From: Leucobacter triazinivorans
Lineage (GTDB): Bacteria > Actinomycetota > Actinomycetes > Actinomycetales > Microbacteriaceae
Direction of reading: 5' to 3'
NCBI RefSeq assembly: GCF_004208635.1
Contig: NZ_CP035806.1
Coordinates: 2,294,001 to 2,358,000, forward strand
Length of the DNA: 64,000 nucleotides
Part shown: positions 17,651-35,606 of the stretch, piece by piece
Layout: each line of letters begins with the position of its first letter
How positions within the stretch are numbered: the stretch's first letter is position 1
The notes under the pieces: generated by a model
Databases searched by the model: none
Told to the model about the DNA's origin: nothing
Seen by the model: only the letters and a program-made list of their open reading frames with translations
Made by a program: the position numbers and the translations under genes

Positions 17651-18450
17651 CCGCGACCGATATCGCAGACGCCGCGCAGCCGCAGCGCGGCGAGGCGCTC
17701 GTGCAGATCCGCAGGGTGCGCAAGAGCTTCGGTGCGCACCAGGTGCTGCGCGACATCTCGCTCGAGGTGCCGGCCGGTTCCGTGACGGTGCTGCTCGGGC
17801 CCTCGGGGTCGGGCAAATCGACACTGCTGCGCTGCGTCAACCATCTCGAAACCATCGACGGCGGCAGGATCATCGTCGACGGCGAGCTCATCGGCTATCG
17901 GCAGGCCGGTGCGAAGACGCACGAGATGACCCCGCGGCAGATCGCGCGGCAGCGGCAGGACATCGGCATGGTGTTCCAGCGATTCAACCTCTTCCCGCAC
18001 ATGACGGCGCTCGAGAACATCATGGAGGCTCCCGTAGGGGTGGCCCGCCGCAGCCGGTCCGTCGCGAAGTCCCGGGCGCTCGAACTGCTCGACCGCGTCG
18101 GGCTCGCCGACTTCGCCGCACACTATCCCGCACAGCTCTCGGGCGGTCAGCAGCAGCGGGTCGCGATCGCACGGGCGCTCGCGATGGACCCGAAGCTCAT
18201 GCTGTTCGACGAGCCCACGTCCGCACTCGATCCCGAGCTCGTCGGCGACGTGCTCGACGTGATGCGCGAGCTCGCCCGCGACGGCATGACGATGATCGTG
18301 GTCACCCACGAGATCGGCTTCGCGCGGGGCGTCGCGGATCAGGTCGTCTTCATGGACGGCGGCGTGGTGGTCGAGGCCGGCGCCCCGTCCGAGGTGCTCG
18401 ACGCGCCGCAGCGCCAGCGCACGCGCAACTTCCTCGACAGCGTGAAGTAG
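17647..18450 (+). CDS. polar amino-acid ABC transporter, ATP-binding protein
   Basis: A 267-aa GlnQ/HisP-type ATPase. Visible motifs are Walker A GPSGSGKST, the Q-loop region GMVFQRFNLFPHMTALENI, signature LSGGQQQRV, Walker B LMLFDEPTSALDPE and the H-loop VVTHE. The length is normal for the family. ATG 17647 overlaps the permease stop (ATGA). It is the last gene of the decarboxylase-ABC cluster and ends at a strong convergent terminator. Confidence 0.95.
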   Translation: MTATDIADAAQPQRGEALVQIRRVRKSFGAHQVLRDISLEVPAGSVTVLLGPSGSGKSTLLRCVNHLETIDGGRIIVDGELIGYRQAGAKTHEMTPRQIARQRQDIGMVFQRFNLFPHMTALENIMEAPVGVARRSRSVAKSRALELLDRVGLADFAAHYPAQLSGGQQQRVAIARALAMDPKLMLFDEPTSALDPELVGDVLDVMRELARDGMTMIVVTHEIGFARGVADQVVFMDGGVVVEAGAPSEVLDAPQRQRTRNFLDSVK

Positions 18451-18455
18451 GGGTC

Positions 18456-18491
18456 CGGATCCCGCTCGCCCATCTGTGCGAGCGGGATCCG
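18456..18491. terminator. bidirectional hairpin between convergent genes
   Basis: Perfect 14-base arms starting CGGATCCCGCTCGC surround an 8-base loop. The hairpin fills the 41-bp gap between the ABC ATPase and the sirtuin gene and can terminate both, although there is no long T-run. Confidence 0.75.
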
Positions 18492-19334
18492 TCAGCTCAG
18501 CATCTCGGCGAGGTCGGTGAGTGTCTCGCTCGTGCCGCCCTCGATGCGCACGCGCACCGAGTCGCGGGAGTCGACAGCGGTCGGGCCCCGGTTGATCACC
18601 GCGATCGGGATCCCGCGCCGTTCGGCGCGGTGCACGAGCCGCATGCCGGTGTTGACGGCGAGCGAGGTGCCCGCCAGCAGCAGTGCACCGGCATCGTGCA
18701 CGAGCGTCTCGCCCGCGGCGAAGACCTCGGGCGGCACGGTCTCCCCGAAGTAGACGACGGCCGGCCGTAGCACCCCGCCGCAGTCCGGGCACTCGGGCAC
18801 CAGCACGCTCGACGGGTCCGAGATGCGCGCGTCGCCATCCGGGCCGAGGGCCGCGTCCGCGTGCTCCTCCGCGTATCCCGGGTTGAGCTGGTCGAAGTTC
18901 GCGAGCACCTCTGCGCGGGTTCGCCGTCGGCCGCAGGCGACGCAGCGGATCGTGGCGCCGTTGCCGTGCAGTTCGACGACTGTGCGCGAGCCCCCGCGAC
19001 GGTGCAGATCGTCGACGTTCTGGGTGATCACCCCCTCGATGCGCCCCGCGGCCTCGAGGTGGGCGAGCGCGCGGTGCCCGGCGTTGGGGGAGACTCCGGC
19101 GCTGCGGAGGAACCCGATCCGGGCGCCCGCCCAGAAGCGCCGTCGGTACGCCACATCGTGCATGAACTCCGCGATGTTCATGGGTGTGCGCGGGGGCGCG
19201 CCCGTGCCGCGGTAGTCGGGTATCCCGGAGTCCGTGCTGATCCCCGCCCCCGTCAGCACGGCGACGGGCCCGTGCGCGAAGAGCGCGGCGAGCTCGCGCA
19301 TCGCATCGGCGTCGGGTTCCGGGCGTCGTGGCAT
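18492..19334 (-). CDS. Sir2-family NAD-dependent protein deacylase
   Basis: A 280-aa sirtuin that removes acyl groups from lysines using NAD. Motifs in order: GAGISTDSGIPDYRG (NAD binding), TQNVDDLHRRGG, the catalytic His in VELHGNG, a zinc-binding pair CVACG and CPDCGG with four cysteines, VVYFGETVP, and LAGTSLAVNTG. The set is complete, so it should be active. ATG 19334 is preceded by GGAGGAAG. It is divergent from pyrE. Whether it is a deacetylase or desuccinylase cannot be told. Confidence 0.93.
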   Translation of the reverse strand: MPRRPEPDADAMRELAALFAHGPVAVLTGAGISTDSGIPDYRGTGAPPRTPMNIAEFMHDVAYRRRFWAGARIGFLRSAGVSPNAGHRALAHLEAAGRIEGVITQNVDDLHRRGGSRTVVELHGNGATIRCVACGRRRTRAEVLANFDQLNPGYAEEHADAALGPDGDARISDPSSVLVPECPDCGGVLRPAVVYFGETVPPEVFAAGETLVHDAGALLLAGTSLAVNTGMRLVHRAERRGIPIAVINRGPTAVDSRDSVRVRIEGGTSETLTDLAEMLS

Positions 19335-19434
19335 GCTTCCTCCTCTCCGTCGAATCTACGGCACGGGCGCACCCGCCGCCTTCGTCGGCGCCTCGTCCCG
19401 CCGCGGCGATCCGGCGGCGAGTAGGATCGTCACC

Positions 19435-19989
19435 ATGACCAGCGCTCGCGAACAGCTCATCGATCTCATCACCGGCGAGGCCGTCTTCCACGGCGACTTC
19501 ACCCTGACGAGCGGCAAGAAGGCCACCTACTACATCGATCTGCGCAAGCTGAGCCTCGACCACCGCGCGGCCCCCCTCATCGGGCAGGTGATGCTCGACC
19601 TCATCGGCGATATCGACGGCGTCGTGGCGGTGGGCGGGCTCACGATGGGCGCCGATCCGATCGCCTCGGCGATCATGCACCAGGGGGTCGCTCGGGGCGA
19701 GGTCTACGACTCCTTCGTGGTGCGCAAGCAGCCGAAGGATCACGGCCGCGGCCGTCAGGTCGAGGGGCCGGATCTCGCGGGCAAGCGCGTGGTGGTGGTC
19801 GAAGACACGTCGACCACTGGCGGATCCCCGCTGCAGGCGATCGAGGCGCTCGAGAAGGTCGGCGCGGAGATCGCCGCGGTGGCCGTGGTCGTGGATCGCC
19901 AGGCCCCCGCGAAGGAGCGCATCGAGGCGGCCGGCTACGAGTACCGCTACGCGATCGGCCTCGACGACCTCGGGCTGCAGCCGCAGTAG
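19435..19989 (+). CDS. pyrE: orotate phosphoribosyltransferase
   Basis: Joins orotate to PRPP to give OMP in de novo pyrimidine synthesis. The 184-aa protein shows FTLTSGKKATYYIDLRKLSL (substrate loop) and the PRPP-binding motif VVVVEDTSTTGGSPLQAI. Length is typical of actinobacterial PyrE. ATG 19435 is seven bases after a TAGGAT box (19422-19427), consistent with a leaderless mRNA. The window's other pyrimidine gene is upp, far away at 60 kb. Confidence 0.95.
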   Translation: MTSAREQLIDLITGEAVFHGDFTLTSGKKATYYIDLRKLSLDHRAAPLIGQVMLDLIGDIDGVVAVGGLTMGADPIASAIMHQGVARGEVYDSFVVRKQPKDHGRGRQVEGPDLAGKRVVVVEDTSTTGGSPLQAIEALEKVGAEIAAVAVVVDRQAPAKERIEAAGYEYRYAIGLDDLGLQPQ

Positions 19990-20060
19990 GGCAGCGGGGG
20001 ATCGCGCGGAGCGAGTCGCGGGTGAAGGGCCGGGCGAGTCGAACCCCGATCCGTCTTCGC

Positions 20061-20090
20061 TTGACACGAGTCGCACAGCTTTGCTTTACT
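20061..20090 (+). promoter_or_regulatory. strong promoter before the mini-ORF
   Basis: A consensus -35 TTGACA (20061-20066) and TTTACT (20085-20090) are 18 bases apart. Transcription would start at about 20097-20098, on the first base of the mini-ORF. It is the best -35 match noticed in the window. Confidence 0.7.
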
Positions 20091-20097
20091 GTGCGGT

Positions 20098-20202
20098 ATG
20101 CATGACACCATTCGCACCCAGTCCGCCGTCGAGGTGAACTTTGGGCTGACCGGCATGATGATGGCCGGACGCGGTGACATGCGCTGTCGAATGTGCGCGT
20201 GA
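20098..20202 (+). CDS. leaderless 34-aa mini-ORF (candidate leader peptide) ending in Met/Cys codons
   Basis: The ORF runs from ATG 20098 to TGA 20200-20202. Its peptide begins MHDTIRTQSA, has three consecutive Met in GMMMAG (codons at 20155-20163) and ends MRCRMCA. There is no Shine-Dalgarno site; the promoter places +1 at the ATG. Leaderless short ORFs with clustered Cys codons are known in mycobacteria as cysteine-responsive attenuators. Here Met (seven in 34, counting the start) and Cys (two) are both candidates for the sensed amino acid. The downstream gene is a winged-helix regulator, 215 bases away. Whether the peptide is made is untested; codon pattern, promoter and position are the evidence. 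Confidence 0.55.
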   Translation: MHDTIRTQSAVEVNFGLTGMMMAGRGDMRCRMCA

Positions 20203-20416
20203 GCGAATCCAGGATCTCGTTCCCCAACGCCGCATCGTGCGACGTTTCGCTCGCCTCACCTGCTCGTATCGCAGATGAGCCGCGCTCCCGCGAGTCTCTG
20301 GGCTGAATCGCAGCCCGCTCGCCTCGCCGCCTCGTAGCGGCCCGCATTCCGCACTCCGAGTGCGCAGTCCCCGGAAGGGGCGCCTCGGACGCGACAGACA
20401 GCTCAAGGACATCATC

Positions 20417-21112
20417 ATGAACGCCGTCACCCAGGCCCTCCGCACCGCCCGCCCCGACCTCGCCGCAGCACTGCCGGCCCTGAGCGCCCCCGAGCGCAAC
20501 GTGCCCGAGGGCACGGAGGTGCGCGGCTTCGCGCTCTACGTGGGGCTCGCAGACGACAAGATCGCCGAGGGCGACCCGCGACTGGGCACCATTGTCACCC
20601 GGATCAAGCAGCTCGTCGCCGAGCTCGCCCCCGCGGCCGACACCTACGCCGCCGTCGCGCTCGCGCCCGAGGGCACCGGAGGCCGCGACGTCGACGTCGT
20701 GCGCCTCGCGCTGGGAGATCCGGCGGCGCACGCCCGCCAGAAGCAGCACGAGGCGGAGGCGGAGGATCGCGCCGCCAGCGGGGTGATCCTCGACCTCTCG
20801 CGCAAGCGCGTGCTGCTCGACAACGTGCCCGCCGCACTCACCTTCCGCGAGTTCGAACTGCTGCAGTACCTGGTGCTGCGCGAGGGGCGCACCATCAGCC
20901 GCGACGAGCTCATCACGGGGCTCTGGGCCGATGCGCCCGCCGAGGAGGTGCCGAGCGAGCGCACCATCGACGTGCACGTGCGGCGCCTGCGCGTGAAACT
21001 GGCGCAGTACCAGGACATCGTGCGCACGGTGCGCGGCACCGGATACCGCTTCGACCGGCACGCGGACGTCTCGATCCTGCACACCGCCGGCCCGAGCCCC
21101 GACGCGTTCTGA
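20417..21112 (+). CDS. winged-helix (OmpR-type DNA-binding) protein without receiver domain
   Basis: A 231-aa protein. The C-terminal part (about 125-215) is a Trans_reg_C winged helix: GVILDLSRKRVLLDNVPAALTFREFELLQYLVLREGRTISRDELI and then ERTIDVHVRRLRVKLAQYQDIVRTVRGTGYRF. The N-terminal about 120 residues show no phospho-acceptor receiver domain. They contain GFALYVGLADDKIAEGDPRLGTIVTRIKQLV, which I do not recognise. Such orphan winged-helix proteins are frequent in Microbacteriaceae. AAGGA lies 9 bases before the ATG. The gene sits behind the mini-ORF leader, so it may be under translational or attenuation control. Confidence 0.8.
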   Translation: MNAVTQALRTARPDLAAALPALSAPERNVPEGTEVRGFALYVGLADDKIAEGDPRLGTIVTRIKQLVAELAPAADTYAAVALAPEGTGGRDVDVVRLALGDPAAHARQKQHEAEAEDRAASGVILDLSRKRVLLDNVPAALTFREFELLQYLVLREGRTISRDELITGLWADAPAEEVPSERTIDVHVRRLRVKLAQYQDIVRTVRGTGYRFDRHADVSILHTAGPSPDAF

Positions 21113-21235
21113 GCGACCGCCGAACACCGACGCCCGGCACACGGGTCCGGACCGTGTGCGGCCGTGCGGCTTCCGTGCAGTGGCCGCCTGCGGTAACGTC
21201 GTAGGAAGAACGCAGTTCCCGAGGAGGAGACCGAG

Positions 21236-21799
21236 ATGACCACGTTGCCCCCTGAGGGCCAGGACGGCCAGGACACTGGCGGTCAGCCCACCAGCGATGC
21301 ACCGCCCGCGGCTCCGACGCCGCCGGCCGCTCCCCAGCAGCCCGCCGCGGCCCCGCAGCAGCCCCAGTACCAGGCGCCGCAGCAGCCCCAGCCGCAGTAC
21401 CAGGCCCCGCCCGCCGGCGGGTACCAGCAGCCGCAGCAGGGCTACGCCCAGCCTGCCGCCGATCCGGTGAGCAACATCACCCTCAACTACTGGCTGTCGG
21501 TCTTCTTCACCTGGATCCCGGCCCTCATCTTCTTCCTCATCGAGAAGGACAAGGGCAATCAGCAGGCGTACGCGTTCCACCGCGACAACCTCAACTTCTC
21601 GCTGCTGCGCGTCGGTGTGGTCGTGGCGACCTACATCCTGATGATCATCCCCTACATCGGCTGGCTGCTCGCGCTCGTGCTGTGGCTCGGATCGCTGGTG
21701 CTGTTCGTGTTCCACATCATCGCCGCCGTGAAGGCTCCCGACGCATACCGTCGCGGCGGGCAGCCGGAGTTCATCTTCAACATTCCGCTGGTGAAGTAG
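21236..21799 (+). CDS. DUF4870-type membrane protein with Pro/Gln-rich N-terminus
   Basis: 187 aa. Residues 1-78 are a low-complexity Pro/Gln/Ala region with repeated QPQYQAP. Residues 80-187 hold about three hydrophobic helices: NYWLSVFFTWIPALIFFLI, LLRVGVVVATYILMIIPYIGWLLALVLWLGSLVLFVFHIIAAVKA, with the conserved FHRDNLNFSLL between them, as in DUF4870/Tic20-like small membrane proteins. Function unknown. The ATG follows GAGGAGG. A strong terminator follows. Confidence 0.8.
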   Translation: MTTLPPEGQDGQDTGGQPTSDAPPAAPTPPAAPQQPAAAPQQPQYQAPQQPQPQYQAPPAGGYQQPQQGYAQPAADPVSNITLNYWLSVFFTWIPALIFFLIEKDKGNQQAYAFHRDNLNFSLLRVGVVVATYILMIIPYIGWLLALVLWLGSLVLFVFHIIAAVKAPDAYRRGGQPEFIFNIPLVK

Positions 21800-21810
21800 A
21801 CGGCTACCGC

Positions 21811-21843
21811 GAAACGGCTCGGGCCCCCGGCCCGGGCCGTTTC
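21811..21843. terminator. rho-independent-type terminator between convergent genes
   Basis: GAAACGGC and GCCGTTTC arms with a GC-rich inner stem (CGGGCC/GGCCCGG region) form a long hairpin. It lies between the DUF4870 gene and the convergent PGPGW protein gene, and the pyrimidine-rich TTTCGTCT on the plus strand suits termination of the former. Confidence 0.75.
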
Positions 21844-21845
21844 GT

Positions 21846-22244
21846 CTATCCGGGGCTGCGCGATCCGCGCCCGTGCGGCGATCCGCGCCCGTCACGCGAT
21901 CGCTGCTCCTTGCGCTCCCGCCGTGCGGCGCGCCACAGATTCCAGCGCTCCCAGAAGCGGGCGAGCACGCGTCGTAGCCACCCGAGCAGGCGCCGGGCCC
22001 AGTGGTACTCGGTGCCGAGCACGGTGAGTCCGATGAAGACGATGAGCCAGCCGGGCCCCGGGAGCGGCACGAGGATCAGGCCGACGATGACGATCACTAC
22101 TCCGAGCGCCGTGATGATCACCTTGTAGGTCGTGTTGAGCCAGGGCCGCCGGCGGATCGAGGCGCGCCACCGCTCCATGAAGCGCCCCACGCGCCTGCTG
22201 AGCCGGTGGGCGCGTTCCGCGTCGCCGGCGTAGGGGTCGGTCAT
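21846..22244 (-). CDS. PGPGW (TIGR02611-type) small membrane protein
   Basis: 132 aa. An N-terminal amphipathic, Arg-rich stretch (RRVGRFMERWRASIRRRPWLNTTYK) leads into two close hydrophobic helices: VIITALGVVIVIVGLILVPLPGPGWLIVFIGLTVLGTE. The PLPGPGW hairpin is the family hallmark. The C-terminus is very basic (RRERKEQRSRDGRGSPHGRG). Function unknown. The start at 22244 has GGAGGC immediately upstream. It is divergent from the aminotransferase. Confidence 0.85.
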   Translation of the reverse strand: MTDPYAGDAERAHRLSRRVGRFMERWRASIRRRPWLNTTYKVIITALGVVIVIVGLILVPLPGPGWLIVFIGLTVLGTEYHWARRLLGWLRRVLARFWERWNLWRAARRERKEQRSRDGRGSPHGRGSRSPG

Positions 22245-22328
22245 GCCTCCGAGGATACGGGCGCGCCCTGGCATTCGGCCGCATGCGGGGCGGGGTCCGT
22301 GCGGGCCCCGCCGCCTACACTGGTGCGT

Positions 22329-23549
22329 ATGACTGCACCCGTGCCCGCGCGGTGGCGCGCCGTGTCCGCGGCCGCGGGGCTCATCGCCCCGGACGGAGCG
22401 GTGCGCCCCACGATCTTCGCCGAGATGACGGCGCTCGCGCAGCAGACCGGCGCGGCGAACCTGGGCCAGGGGTTTCCCGACAGCGACGGCCCGGAGTGGA
22501 TCCGCGAGGCCGCCGTGCGCGCGATCCGCGAGGGCGCGAATCAGTACCCGCCGGGACGGGGGATTCCGCGGCTGCGTGCCGCGATCGCGTCGCACCAGCG
22601 CCGGCACTACGGCCTCGAGGTGGATCCGGAGCGCGAGGTGCTCGTCACCGCGGGGGCGACCGAGGCCCTCACCGCGGCTATCCTCGCGCTCGCCGGCCCG
22701 GGCAACGAGGTCGTGACGCTGGAGCCCTTCTACGACTCCTACGCGGCGTGCATCGCCCTGGCGGGGGCGCGGCACGTCACCGTGCCGCTCGTTCCCGGCC
22801 CCGAGGGGTTCCGCCTCGACGTCGCGGCGCTCGACGCGGCCGTGGGGGAGCGCACCCGACTGATCGTGGTGAACACCCCGCACAACCCCACCGGCACCGT
22901 GCTGACCGGGTCCGAGCTCGCTCGCATCGCGGCGGCGGCCGTGCGCGCCGACGCAGTGGTCGTCACCGACGAGGTCTACGAGCACCTGGTCTTCGACGGC
23001 GCCGCACACATGCCGCTCGCGACGCTGCCGGGCATGGCCGAGCGCACGCTCACCGTCTCGTCGGCGGGCAAGACCTTCTCGGTGACCGGGTGGAAGGTCG
23101 GCTGGGCGAGCGGGCCGGCCGAGCTCGTCGAGGCCGTGCTCGCAGTGAAGCAGTACCTCACCTACTCGGGAGGGGCGCCATTCCAGCCCGCGATCGCCGA
23201 CGCGCTCGAGGCGGGCGACGGCGAGGTCGCCGCACTGCGCGACTCGCTGCGGCGGCGGCGGGACCTCCTCGCCGCGGGGCTGCGCGACGCCGGCTTCGAG
23301 ACCGTGGTGCCGCAGGGCACCTACTTCGTGTGCGCAGACGCCGCGGCGCTGCCGGACGGTGCAGACGGCGCGGAATTCGCCCGCTCCCTCCCCGGCCGGG
23401 CGGGCGTCGCCTGCGTGCCCGTCTCCGCGTTCTGCCGCGCGGGATCGGAGGCCGCGACGGCCCTCTCATCGTGGGCGCGTTTCACCTTCGTCAAGGACGA
23501 GCCGACGCTGCGCACGGCGATCGGCCGGTTGCTGGCTCTGCGCGGCTGA
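22329..23549 (+). CDS. PLP-dependent class I/II aminotransferase
   Basis: A 406-aa fold-type I aminotransferase that moves amino groups between amino acids and 2-oxo acids. Motifs: NLGQGFPDSDGPEWI at the N-terminus, VTAGATEALTAAILAL, NTPHNPTGTVLT (substrate carboxylate and PLP contacts), DEVYEHLVFDG, and the Schiff-base lysine in SSAGKTFSVTGWKVGW. The pattern is close to N-succinyldiaminopimelate aminotransferase and kynurenine aminotransferase-like enzymes; the exact substrate is open. ATG 22329 lies seven bases after TACACT (22316-22321), consistent with a leaderless message. Confidence 0.92.
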   Translation: MTAPVPARWRAVSAAAGLIAPDGAVRPTIFAEMTALAQQTGAANLGQGFPDSDGPEWIREAAVRAIREGANQYPPGRGIPRLRAAIASHQRRHYGLEVDPEREVLVTAGATEALTAAILALAGPGNEVVTLEPFYDSYAACIALAGARHVTVPLVPGPEGFRLDVAALDAAVGERTRLIVVNTPHNPTGTVLTGSELARIAAAAVRADAVVVTDEVYEHLVFDGAAHMPLATLPGMAERTLTVSSAGKTFSVTGWKVGWASGPAELVEAVLAVKQYLTYSGGAPFQPAIADALEAGDGEVAALRDSLRRRRDLLAAGLRDAGFETVVPQGTYFVCADAAALPDGADGAEFARSLPGRAGVACVPVSAFCRAGSEAATALSSWARFTFVKDEPTLRTAIGRLLALRG

Positions 23550-33958: not shown

Positions 33959-34618
33959 CTACGACTCCGACTGCCGCAGCGCCGCCGCGTTCAGCTGGAC
34001 GGCGGCGAGCAGCACCGGGTCGGCCTGGCCGGGCCAGGTGCCCACGAGGATGCCCGAGCGCTCGGGGGCGGCCGCGTCGAGACCGAGTCGCCGAACGATC
34101 TCGATCACCCCGATGCCGGTCTCGACGCGGGTCGTCACCCCGGCCGCACGGGTCGGCTCCGCCGAGGCGTCGAGCTCGTCGACGTCGATGCCGGATCCGC
34201 GGACCCGCGTGTCGTTCTCGAGCACGACGGGTTCGCCGCCGGTGTCGAGCAGCCGCGCGGCTTCGCCTCGGCCGAACAGCACGGTCTCGACGACCGCGCG
34301 GATGTAGGCGGGATCGTGGCTGCCCTCGGACACCCAGCGCTGTCCCAGCACCCCGTGCTCGAGCGTGCCGATCACGCTGCCGGGCGAGACAGCCGGCGGG
34401 CCGCCCCGGTAGGTGAGCGGCACCTGGAACACGTCGTCGCCGCCGGCGGTGACGAGCAGCGTCTCGATGCCGACCTCGCCGTCGGGGTCGTCGAAGCGGA
34501 AGCTGCCGACCTGCTGCAGCGCGGTCGCATCGCCGCTGAACCAGGGCTGCCCGGGCAGCCACCGGGAGAGCAGTTCGAGCTTCGTCGGGGAGAGCGTGGT
34601 CTCGTGGAGAATCGCCAA
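33959..34618 (-). CDS. maltokinase N-terminal-cap-like protein (CG0192-type)
   Basis: 219 aa. The N-terminus MAILHETTLSPTKLELLSRWLPGQPWFSG and the next FRFDDPDGEVGIETLLVTAGGDDVFQVPLTYR match the N-terminal cap of actinobacterial maltokinases (Pep2/Mak) without the kinase domain. This stand-alone form is known in corynebacteria (CG0192) and elsewhere. It may bind a trehalose- or amino-sugar-like ligand or a partner enzyme; no enzyme motif is visible. Only 52 bases separate it from the upstream lipoprotein gene, so the two may be cotranscribed. Confidence 0.82.
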   Translation of the reverse strand: MAILHETTLSPTKLELLSRWLPGQPWFSGDATALQQVGSFRFDDPDGEVGIETLLVTAGGDDVFQVPLTYRGGPPAVSPGSVIGTLEHGVLGQRWVSEGSHDPAYIRAVVETVLFGRGEAARLLDTGGEPVVLENDTRVRGSGIDVDELDASAEPTRAAGVTTRVETGIGVIEIVRRLGLDAAAPERSGILVGTWPGQADPVLLAAVQLNAAALRQSES

Positions 34619-34670
34619 GGGTCGGGCCTTTCTGTCGTGACGGGGGTCTACGGGGCGGACGCGCCCGTGC

Positions 34671-35606
34671 TCAGGGGGTCTCCGCCCACGCGCAACCCAG
34701 CACGCCGTCCTGCTGCACGCCGATCAGGATCCATCCGGGGAACGGCTCCCCGTAGACCGGCCACGGTTCCACCGGGAACGCCCCGACCTCCGCGCCGCCG
34801 GTGATCTCGGCGCCGACAGCCTCGTCGGGCACCGGGTGGAGCTCGCCCGAGTAGGGCACCGCCTCGTATTCGGCGGCGACGGGGCACAACCCTCCGAAGC
34901 CCCCGGCCGGGTCGGTGCGCACCGGCCACCACTCGCCCGCGTTCCTGGCCTCCATCGCGGTGACCACGCGGGTGCGCTCATCGGTGCCGGTTTCGGTGCA
35001 GGGCAGCGCGTCTTCCCCGATCGTGCGGCGCGTCTCGTGGATCTGCACGCCACCGCCTTCCGCCGCCGTGACCGAGTGGGTGACCGTGCCGCACCTGCTG
35101 GCGCGGGCCACCGGCAGGGTCACCTGCACCGGTCCGTCGTCGTCGGCCACCCACAGATACCACTGCTCGTCGACCGCGTTCCCGTCGAGTCTCGTCACCT
35201 GCACCGCGGCGTCCATACGGTCGTCGTCGGTCAGCTGGGCGTGCACCGTCTCGCCGAGCGTGTAGGTGACCATGCCGTCCGTCGCCGACCCGTCGACGAA
35301 CTCGAGCTGCACCGTCTCGGGCAGGTTGCCTCCCGGTCGGAACACCCACGGAAGCGAGCCGAAGTCGGTCTCCTCGAGGCCGGCGGACGTCGGCGCGGCG
35401 GTCTCGGACGGCGCCGGCGACTGCTCCTGCGCCTCACCCTGCGCAGTGGATCCGTTCTGCAGTGGCGCCGGAGCGCATGCGACGAGCCCCGCCGCCGCGG
35501 TCGCGGCGGCGAGCACGACGGCCGCGCCGGTCGCGCACCGCGACCGTCCGAGTGCCTCATGTGCCCTGAGTGCCCTGAGTGCCCTGAGTGCCCTGAGTGC
35601 CCGCAT
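34671..35606 (-). CDS. putative lipoprotein with RAL tandem-repeat N-terminus
   Basis: 311 aa. Before the signal segment there is a run MRALRALRALRALRAHEAL coded by a 9-bp tandem repeat, then GAAVVLAAATAAAGLVAC, which is a lipoprotein signal with lipobox LVAC. The mature part begins with a Gln/Ser/Thr-rich linker and has no recognised domain; it contains GTVTHSVTAAEGGGVQIHE and GEWWPVRTDPAGGFGG. ATG 35606 is preceded by TACGGT (35614-35619, minus strand) with a 7-base gap, so it appears leaderless; a GTG at 35615 is the alternative. Function unknown. Confidence 0.7.
   Translation of the reverse strand: MRALRALRALRALRAHEALGRSRCATGAAVVLAAATAAAGLVACAPAPLQNGSTAQGEAQEQSPAPSETAAPTSAGLEETDFGSLPWVFRPGGNLPETVQLEFVDGSATDGMVTYTLGETVHAQLTDDDRMDAAVQVTRLDGNAVDEQWYLWVADDDGPVQVTLPVARASRCGTVTHSVTAAEGGGVQIHETRRTIGEDALPCTETGTDERTRVVTAMEARNAGEWWPVRTDPAGGFGGLCPVAAEYEAVPYSGELHPVPDEAVGAEITGGAEVGAFPVEPWPVYGEPFPGWILIGVQQDGVLGCAWAETP
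35561..35605 (-). repeat. 9-bp tandem repeat in the lipoprotein signal region
   Basis: GTGCCCTGA (plus strand) is repeated four times exactly (35561-35596) plus a diverged fifth. On the minus strand it codes for Arg-Ala-Leu repeats directly after the start codon. Confidence 0.9.

Follow-up and report, generated by a model that had tools for sequence, protein, structure and literature searches.

The window that we analyzed, a stretch of 64,000 nucleotides from Leucobacter triazinivorans, contains a short upstream open reading frame (uORF) ahead of an orphan winged-helix regulator gene, and we consider it likely that this uORF acts as a leader-peptide attenuator that responds to sulfur amino acids. 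It would probably gauge the supply of these amino acids and set the level of the regulator, which is itself a candidate sulfur-starvation regulator. In the proposed mechanism, a ribosome would start on the AUG at the 5′ end of the transcript and translate the uORF, and when charged Cys- or Met-tRNA is short, it would stall on the corresponding codons; this stall would keep the regulator expressed. In Leucobacter, a run of Met codons may pair with the regulator start, so that a ribosome stalled over the run would free the site (translational attenuation). A second route fits at least as well: the Cys codons lie beside the stop codon, where a stalled ribosome could shield the adjacent C-rich leader from Rho. 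The regulator, whose synthesis costs no Cys and, after the initial residue, no Met, would most likely activate sulfur assimilation and the synthesis of Cys and Met. In its widest form, which we put forward tentatively as plausible but short of probable, the proposal is that a dual Met/Cys leader is the sensor of a previously undescribed sulfur-starvation regulator in Microbacteriaceae, Micrococcaceae, Brevibacteriaceae, and Dermabacteraceae; that the sensor codons double as an anti-start strand (an AUG run against a CAU run); that the Dermabacteraceae version is a Met-run attenuator; and that Cys and Met have been removed from the regulator, allowing its synthesis when both are absent.

All elements of the locus lie on the plus strand. 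The −35 element TTGACA (20061 to 20066) is followed after 18 bases by the −10 element TTTACT (20085 to 20090), which has TGC directly 5′ (extended −10 type) and ends seven bases before the uORF ATG at 20098. The preliminary description had called this a consensus promoter; its coordinates and 18-base spacer held up, whereas "consensus" did not, as the −10 agrees with TATAAT at four of six positions. A promoter scan of 18000 to 23000 that required A at the second position of the −10 hexamer reported none. TTGAC was found 35 to 37 bases 5′ of the uORF ATG in 38 of 39 Leucobacter loci (it is absent in L026, and the upstream sequence of L035 is too short for judgement), and the −10 of these relatives is mostly TTAACT. 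Since the TTGAC spacing is kept so widely, the predicted promoter is more than a chance match. A Shine-Dalgarno-like motif precedes only 1 of 115 uORFs (Leucobacter, other Microbacteriaceae-type loci, and L045). The predicted promoter spacing and the missing Shine-Dalgarno sequence fit a start of translation at the transcript 5′ end, which is predicted to fall on the ATG at 20098. An inverted repeat around the −10 of the window, CGCACAG/CTGTGCG, was discarded, as it is not conserved in relatives. Rfam gave no relevant family in the window at the gathering score, nor at E values up to 5 around the uORF. The gene 5′ of the uORF (19435 to 19989 in the window) varies across 40 Leucobacter loci: 4 of them, the window among these, have pyrE there, 27 have upp, and 9 have neither, so that two phosphoribosyltransferase genes occupy one place upstream of the uORF.

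The uORF (20098 to 20202; stop codon TGA at 20200 to 20202) has 34 codons, encodes MHDTIRTQSAVEVNFGLTGMMMAGRGDMRCRMCA, and ends M-R-C-R-M-C-A-stop. Between its stop and the ATG of the winged-helix gene at 20417 lie 214 bases of C-skewed intergenic leader (20203 to 20416), a possible Rho-loading region, at the end of which the Shine-Dalgarno sequence AAGGA is followed by CATCATCATG with the regulator start codon (20405 to 20419). The regulator gene (20417 to 21112) encodes 231 amino acids. The coordinates first given for a 34-codon frame with a triple Met and a terminal MRCRMCA, more than 200 bases from a winged-helix gene, were right.

Within the genus, the regulator ortholog was present in 37 of 37 genomes searched (in G010 it is truncated by a contig edge), and the uORF preceded the same winged-helix gene in all 36 genomes with readable upstream sequence. 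Its frame is intact in 35; in L017, from a genome of 89% completeness, a one-base shift breaks it. Among 29 indel-free loci (25 of them distinct), codons GAG12, GTG13, GGG16, GGC19, ATG20-22, ATG28, CGA31, ATG32, and TGC33 are invariant. CGA, GGG, and TTT, which make up 4%, 7%, and 4% of the codons for their amino acids in regulator genes, are conserved in the uORFs, CGA invariantly, and uORF codon choice is unusual in three groups (z of −3.6, −3.6, and −3.1). Because codons are invariant, rare ones are kept, and codon choice is unusual, the nucleotides or the decoding of the uORF are under constraints additional to those on the peptide. Of 47 matches to the motif ATGNNNTGYCGAATG in 37 genomes, 36 are the uORF and 11 lie elsewhere. 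The proposed sensor codons form a Cys30-CGA31-Met32-Cys33 block (GCTGTCGAATGTGC; 20183 to 20196), and the last 12 codons hold four to six Cys and Met codons in 31 of 31 distinct Leucobacter sequences. Conservation among relatives had been named earlier as a check, and the peptide, the terminal Cys/Met codons, the promoter geometry, and the downstream gene are indeed all kept; we regard the mini-ORF at 20098 to 20202 as real.

The uORF extends beyond the genus. Of 297 genomes from the order, 87 have a regulator homolog (E ≤ 1e-22), 23 of the 87 being from Microbacteriaceae; since 190 unmatched genomes went unlisted, these counts do not amount to a fraction for the family. A pattern search found the uORF in 75 of 80 non-Leucobacter Microbacteriaceae-type loci, for example, as MTDNSRTLTSFEALGDAGMMMAGRDSVMCCRMCR in Leifsonia. 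Of its five misses, L127 and L134 have a visible uORF, L129 has a short variant, and L084 and L155 have little upstream sequence; the uORF of L121 is frame shifted. In Micrococcaceae, the uORF is GTG started and Cys rich (e.g., VNKNSTAPAAAEHWPSTPAAADMRCCRMHA); it was found by pattern in 23 of 40 loci and by eye in four more (L046, L057, L133, and L135), and it was not seen by eye in Rothia and Kocuria loci. Leaderless initiation is less sure in this family because the promoter match is weaker. Forms such as MTSTIEPLRMPGADMCMPCVRGR occur in 8 of 12 Brevibacteriaceae loci, and Met-rich uORFs such as MTSIAVRVEAAIRVASAMMRSMMMMMMQMMQRQPSL, with runs of three to six Met codons, occur in 11 of 11 Dermabacteraceae loci, both families being assigned from the names of best relatives. 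Three to eight Cys and Met codons lie among the last 12 in 70 of 70 distinct uORFs from other Microbacteriaceae-type loci, and three to five in 21 of 22 from Micrococcaceae. At least one of the last 12 is Cys in 31/31 Leucobacter, 70/70 other Microbacteriaceae-type, and 21/22 Micrococcaceae uORFs; several Dermabacteraceae uORFs lack Cys and have Met in its place. In Micrococcaceae (L037 to L052 and L137 to L150), a palindrome-like element near GTCTCAnnATGnGGAC lies 5′ of the uORF promoter, and a repeated GTTAC lies further 5′.

The counts by group rest on the following samples. Cys/Met-tail and skew counts use distinct sequences of Leucobacter, other Microbacteriaceae-type loci, and Micrococcaceae. 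L045 (Micrococcaceae) is grouped with the other Microbacteriaceae in these counts, in the promoter and Shine-Dalgarno counts, and in the ribosome-binding site (RBS)-opening model, which took every second "other" locus. L046, L121, L126, L089, and L097 (doubtful ORF or start) are left out of some or all of the partner-swap, hairpin/codon, RBS-opening, tail/skew, promoter/Shine-Dalgarno, and GTYAY counts, and L017 is left out of the hairpin/codon, RBS-opening, and Cys/Met-tail and skew counts. One alignment in which the row for L028 was wrong was set aside.

A CxxC motif, carried by 27 of 31 Leucobacter uORFs and by 63 of 70 from other Microbacteriaceae-type loci, along with the Met/His-rich ends of the Dermabacteraceae uORFs, would also suit a metal-sensing leader, whose nascent peptide, rich in Cys and Met (CxxC, Met runs), would stop translation on binding copper or another thiophilic metal. 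We judge this very unlikely, as CxxC occurs in just 1 of 22 Micrococcaceae uORFs, several Microbacteriaceae forms (L080, L128, and L162) have a single terminal Cys, and metal sensing would not explain why the regulator lacks Cys and Met.

That composition is a pronounced feature of the regulator, an OmpR-type protein. Its one Pfam match above cutoff is Trans_reg_C (PF00486; residues 139 to 212; 73 bits against a cutoff of 26.2), no receiver domain was found at its N terminus, and NCBIfam matches were all far below their cutoffs. Profile matches in the PDB are to OmpR/PhoB winged-helix proteins, the best being 8hml and 8hig, both of which we take to be GlnR. The protein is 95% identical to its homolog in L. 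celer subsp. astrifaciens; a first structure model was poor (pLDDT of 62.8), and a second reached a mean pLDDT of 84.9. We counted distinct proteins over the core, which extends from the conserved RGF motif through the C terminus. All 37 Leucobacter cores and 70 of the 74 cores from other Microbacteriaceae-type loci (together 107 of 111) had neither Cys nor Met, and all 111 cores together hold 4 Cys and 1 Met. This core count replaces one of 8 in 40, set aside because its frames had been extended 5′ as far as the first ATG or GTG. For comparison, other coding-like ORFs in 61 such loci average 1.01 Cys and 1.86 Met per 100 amino acids, with 2 of 115 lacking both; 1 of 41 ORFs in the window lacks Cys and internal Met; and the five other OmpR-type proteins of the same genome have one to six internal Met residues. 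Depletion is weaker elsewhere, with both residues missing from 7 of 23 Micrococcaceae, 4 of 12 Brevibacteriaceae, and 0 of 11 Dermabacteraceae regulators. A sulfur-free composition is what would be expected for a protein needed when Cys and Met are short. The single ORF among the 41 in the window that lacks Cys and internal Met lies on the minus strand at 33962 to 34696 and encodes a protein with a maltokinase N-terminal cap domain.

The Met run of the uORF mirrors the regulator start. The proposed anti-start strand, CATGATGATG (20154 to 20163; Met codons 20 to 22 and the preceding base), is the exact reverse complement of 20410 to 20419, and RNAalifold on 36 Leucobacter leaders proposes that CATGATGATG (codons 19 to 22) pairs with CATCATCATG at the regulator start. 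Exact complements of the Met run of at least 7 bases, between −50 and +12, were found in 38 of 39 Leucobacter loci. Of 69 other Microbacteriaceae-type loci, 31 have one, often just 5′ of the Shine-Dalgarno sequence, and 38 have none. The start region GCACATCATCATG of L024, L027, and L028 is matched by a corresponding change to CATGATGATGTGC in the uORF. Core uORF:RBS pairs are almost invariant in Leucobacter. AGGAC-N0-5-ATCATCATG had 40 matches in 37 genus genomes, 34 of them at the regulator start, and the start context is largely private to the regulator gene. In Dermabacteraceae, complements of 7 to 11 bases lie no more than nine bases from the start in 9 of 11 loci, which 0 to 19% of other windows equal. 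Leader complements of at least 6 bases also exist for the Cys30-CGA31 block; 36 of 39 Leucobacter loci and 73 of 100 others have one, yet on average 20% and 29% of gene windows, respectively, do equally well. In the window, the complement, CGACAG (20392 to 20397) to uORF CTGTCG, is only 6 bases long, and 52% of gene windows equal or surpass it. In 20 of 25 Micrococcaceae rows, GCATTCG is found near −45, and many leaders of this family (L037 to L150) have a short GCCG-loop-CGGC hairpin of varying sequence between this motif and the Shine-Dalgarno sequence.

Over shuffled leaders, the best helix of the Leucobacter Met run gained 4.75 kcal/mol, that of the tail 1.8 to 2.2 kcal/mol, that of the Met-run segment outside Leucobacter 1.5 and 0.3 kcal/mol, and those of the controls (uORF 5′ end and gene segment) at most 0.9 kcal/mol. 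The energy of the uORF:RBS duplex, which reached the best 5% in at most 2 of 141 loci, was not extreme and is ordinary for such GC-rich RNA. Coevolution of uORF and RBS appears weak because partner-swap tests within groups were mostly nonsignificant (six tests; P = 0.17, 0.038, 0.009, 0.49, 0.46, and 0.30; two below 0.05). In Leucobacter, the modeled cost of opening the RBS was 5.6 with a free leader, 4.8 with a stall on the Met run, 8.6 at the first Cys, and 6.2 at the stop, and a footprint at codon 12 also raised it, to 7.2; the other groups hardly shifted. Because a Met-run stall lowers this cost and a first-Cys stall raises it, folding at best favors Met sensing in Leucobacter and leaves Cys unexplained. 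The suggestion that the uORF senses Cys and/or Met is backed by two separate lines of evidence, the Cys-rich and Met-run forms in other families and the near absence of Cys and Met from the regulator. The folding model speaks against a simple release of the RBS by a Cys stall. The several hairpins originally described gained no support: RNAalifold on the 36 leaders found none conserved in the intergenic part, and the hairpin within the ORF, ACCGGC-ATGATGATG-GCCGGT, was rejected, being no more stable than synonymous shuffles (mean z of −0.26, −0.34, and +0.11 in three groups). Both sides of its outermost pair are changed in a few of 28 rows. The scan of 18000 to 23000 found no site like an intrinsic terminator in the leader, which, together with the lack of a conserved intergenic hairpin among the 36 leaders, speaks against a trp-type transcription attenuator with its terminator and alternative hairpin.

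The folding models give no single switch common to all groups, and within Leucobacter much of the peptide beyond its end is conserved, as would suit a uORF whose product is a small trans-acting protein, or one kept only for promoter or start-site reasons, with the regulator not attenuated. This seems unlikely to us: across families the body of the peptide diverges and the Cys/Met codons beside the stop stay, the putative target is sulfur free, and rare uORF codons are kept.

A stronger rival is attenuation of transcription by Rho only, in which a ribosome stalled at the uORF end shields a C-rich loading region, Rho terminates before the regulator once that ribosome is gone, and the RBS pairing is incidental. 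We see this as possible but somewhat doubtful. The C-over-G skew of the leader is 0.23, 0.26, and 0.22 in the three groups against 0.02, 0.04, and 0.03 upstream of the promoter, and leader skew exceeds promoter-upstream skew in 31/31, 68/69, and 20/22 loci; the regulator genes, however, are C skewed as well (0.12, 0.15, and 0.20). Placement of the last Cys codon two codons before the stop in 28 of 31 Leucobacter and 65 of 70 other Microbacteriaceae-type uORFs is consistent with shielding, whereas the near-private CATCATCATG start context is left unexplained.

Our literature search, with subscription journals mostly outside it, returned neither a methionine-codon leader peptide nor the present leader and regulator. 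So far as it shows, the spread to these families, the Met-only versions, and the regulator as target are new, as are the sulfur-free composition of the regulator and the Met run mirroring its start region. Cys-rich leaderless uORFs were reportedly described in mycobacteria by Canestrari in 2020, and the mycobacterial gene Rv0485 encodes a regulator. The accessible parts of two reports describe such uORFs in mycobacteria (PMC4633059 and PMC9031893), the first of them upstream of cysA2, Rv0485, and nirA. Like them, the present uORF is short, predicted to be leaderless, equipped with Cys codons near its end, and conserved before a gene that it possibly controls. Unlike them, the present leaders add or substitute Met codons, and the putative target is a sulfur-poor OmpR-type regulator whose start the Met codons can mirror. 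As far as the accessible text of a 2005 study goes (PMC1262725), Cys leader peptides were predicted for cys operons of Mycobacterium and Propionibacterium acnes and for Bifidobacterium cbs, likewise with Cys codons near the stop and no conserved terminator hairpin, and Rho was proposed there, also for the mycobacterial cys leaders; those leaders precede biosynthetic genes, and that text mentions no Met version. The LEU element before leuA, in the same text (PMC1262725), has a sensor codon run that pairs with the RBS of the next gene, as proposed here, but with Leu codons, a pseudoknot, and a biosynthetic target. Ribosome stalling on the whiB7 uORF raises a transcription factor, as we propose, although signal and factor differ and the accessible part of the source describes transcription attenuation (PMC13236596). 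Were our reading correct, a large group of Actinomycetota would have a named sensor for sulfur amino acids and a likely regulator to go with it, a single lineage of leader peptides would be seen to move from sensing one of Cys and Met to sensing the other, and the regulator would be a clear example of elemental sparing.

Evidence for a regulon marked by GTYAY repeats is weak. Of 37 Leucobacter loci, 3 have at least two repeats 10 to 11 bp apart at the uORF promoter, as do 19 of 73 other Microbacteriaceae-type loci and none of 23 Micrococcaceae loci; shuffles would give at most 0.1 per group, a control region gave 0 of 136, and the uORF promoter of the window has none. Genome-wide, a triple repeat is nonspecific in the genus because 41 genomes gave 30 matches against 20 for the reversed pattern. 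Eleven genomes, picked mostly for a repeat already seen there, gave 17 distinct sites against 4 reversed-pattern matches: 8 at the regulator, 1 before MetY, 2 before a NirA-type siroheme reductase, 1 before a MetE-like gene, 2 before OsmC, and 3 elsewhere. Among homologs, repeats were present at 2 of 6 reductase and 2 of 30 MetY genes (controls, 0 of 6 and 1 of 30), and for the MetE-like gene in the three Leucobacter loci seen and, by eye, 1 of 20 loci of other genera. Since the best PDB profile matches are presumably GlnR, this or another OmpR-type factor could own the GTYAY sites. In two Leucobacter genomes (L216 and L199), a triple GTCAY repeat stands ahead of OsmC-family genes, and the source genome has six head-to-tail CGTCACGCGY-like units near a ferredoxin gene (G000:C1:1284981-1285035; L204). 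Many Microbacteriaceae outside Leucobacter (L219 to L232) carry GCGAAGCCTCGC some 100 bases 5′ of a MetE-like gene; Rfam gave no match there in six of these loci, and the sequence may be an undescribed RNA element.
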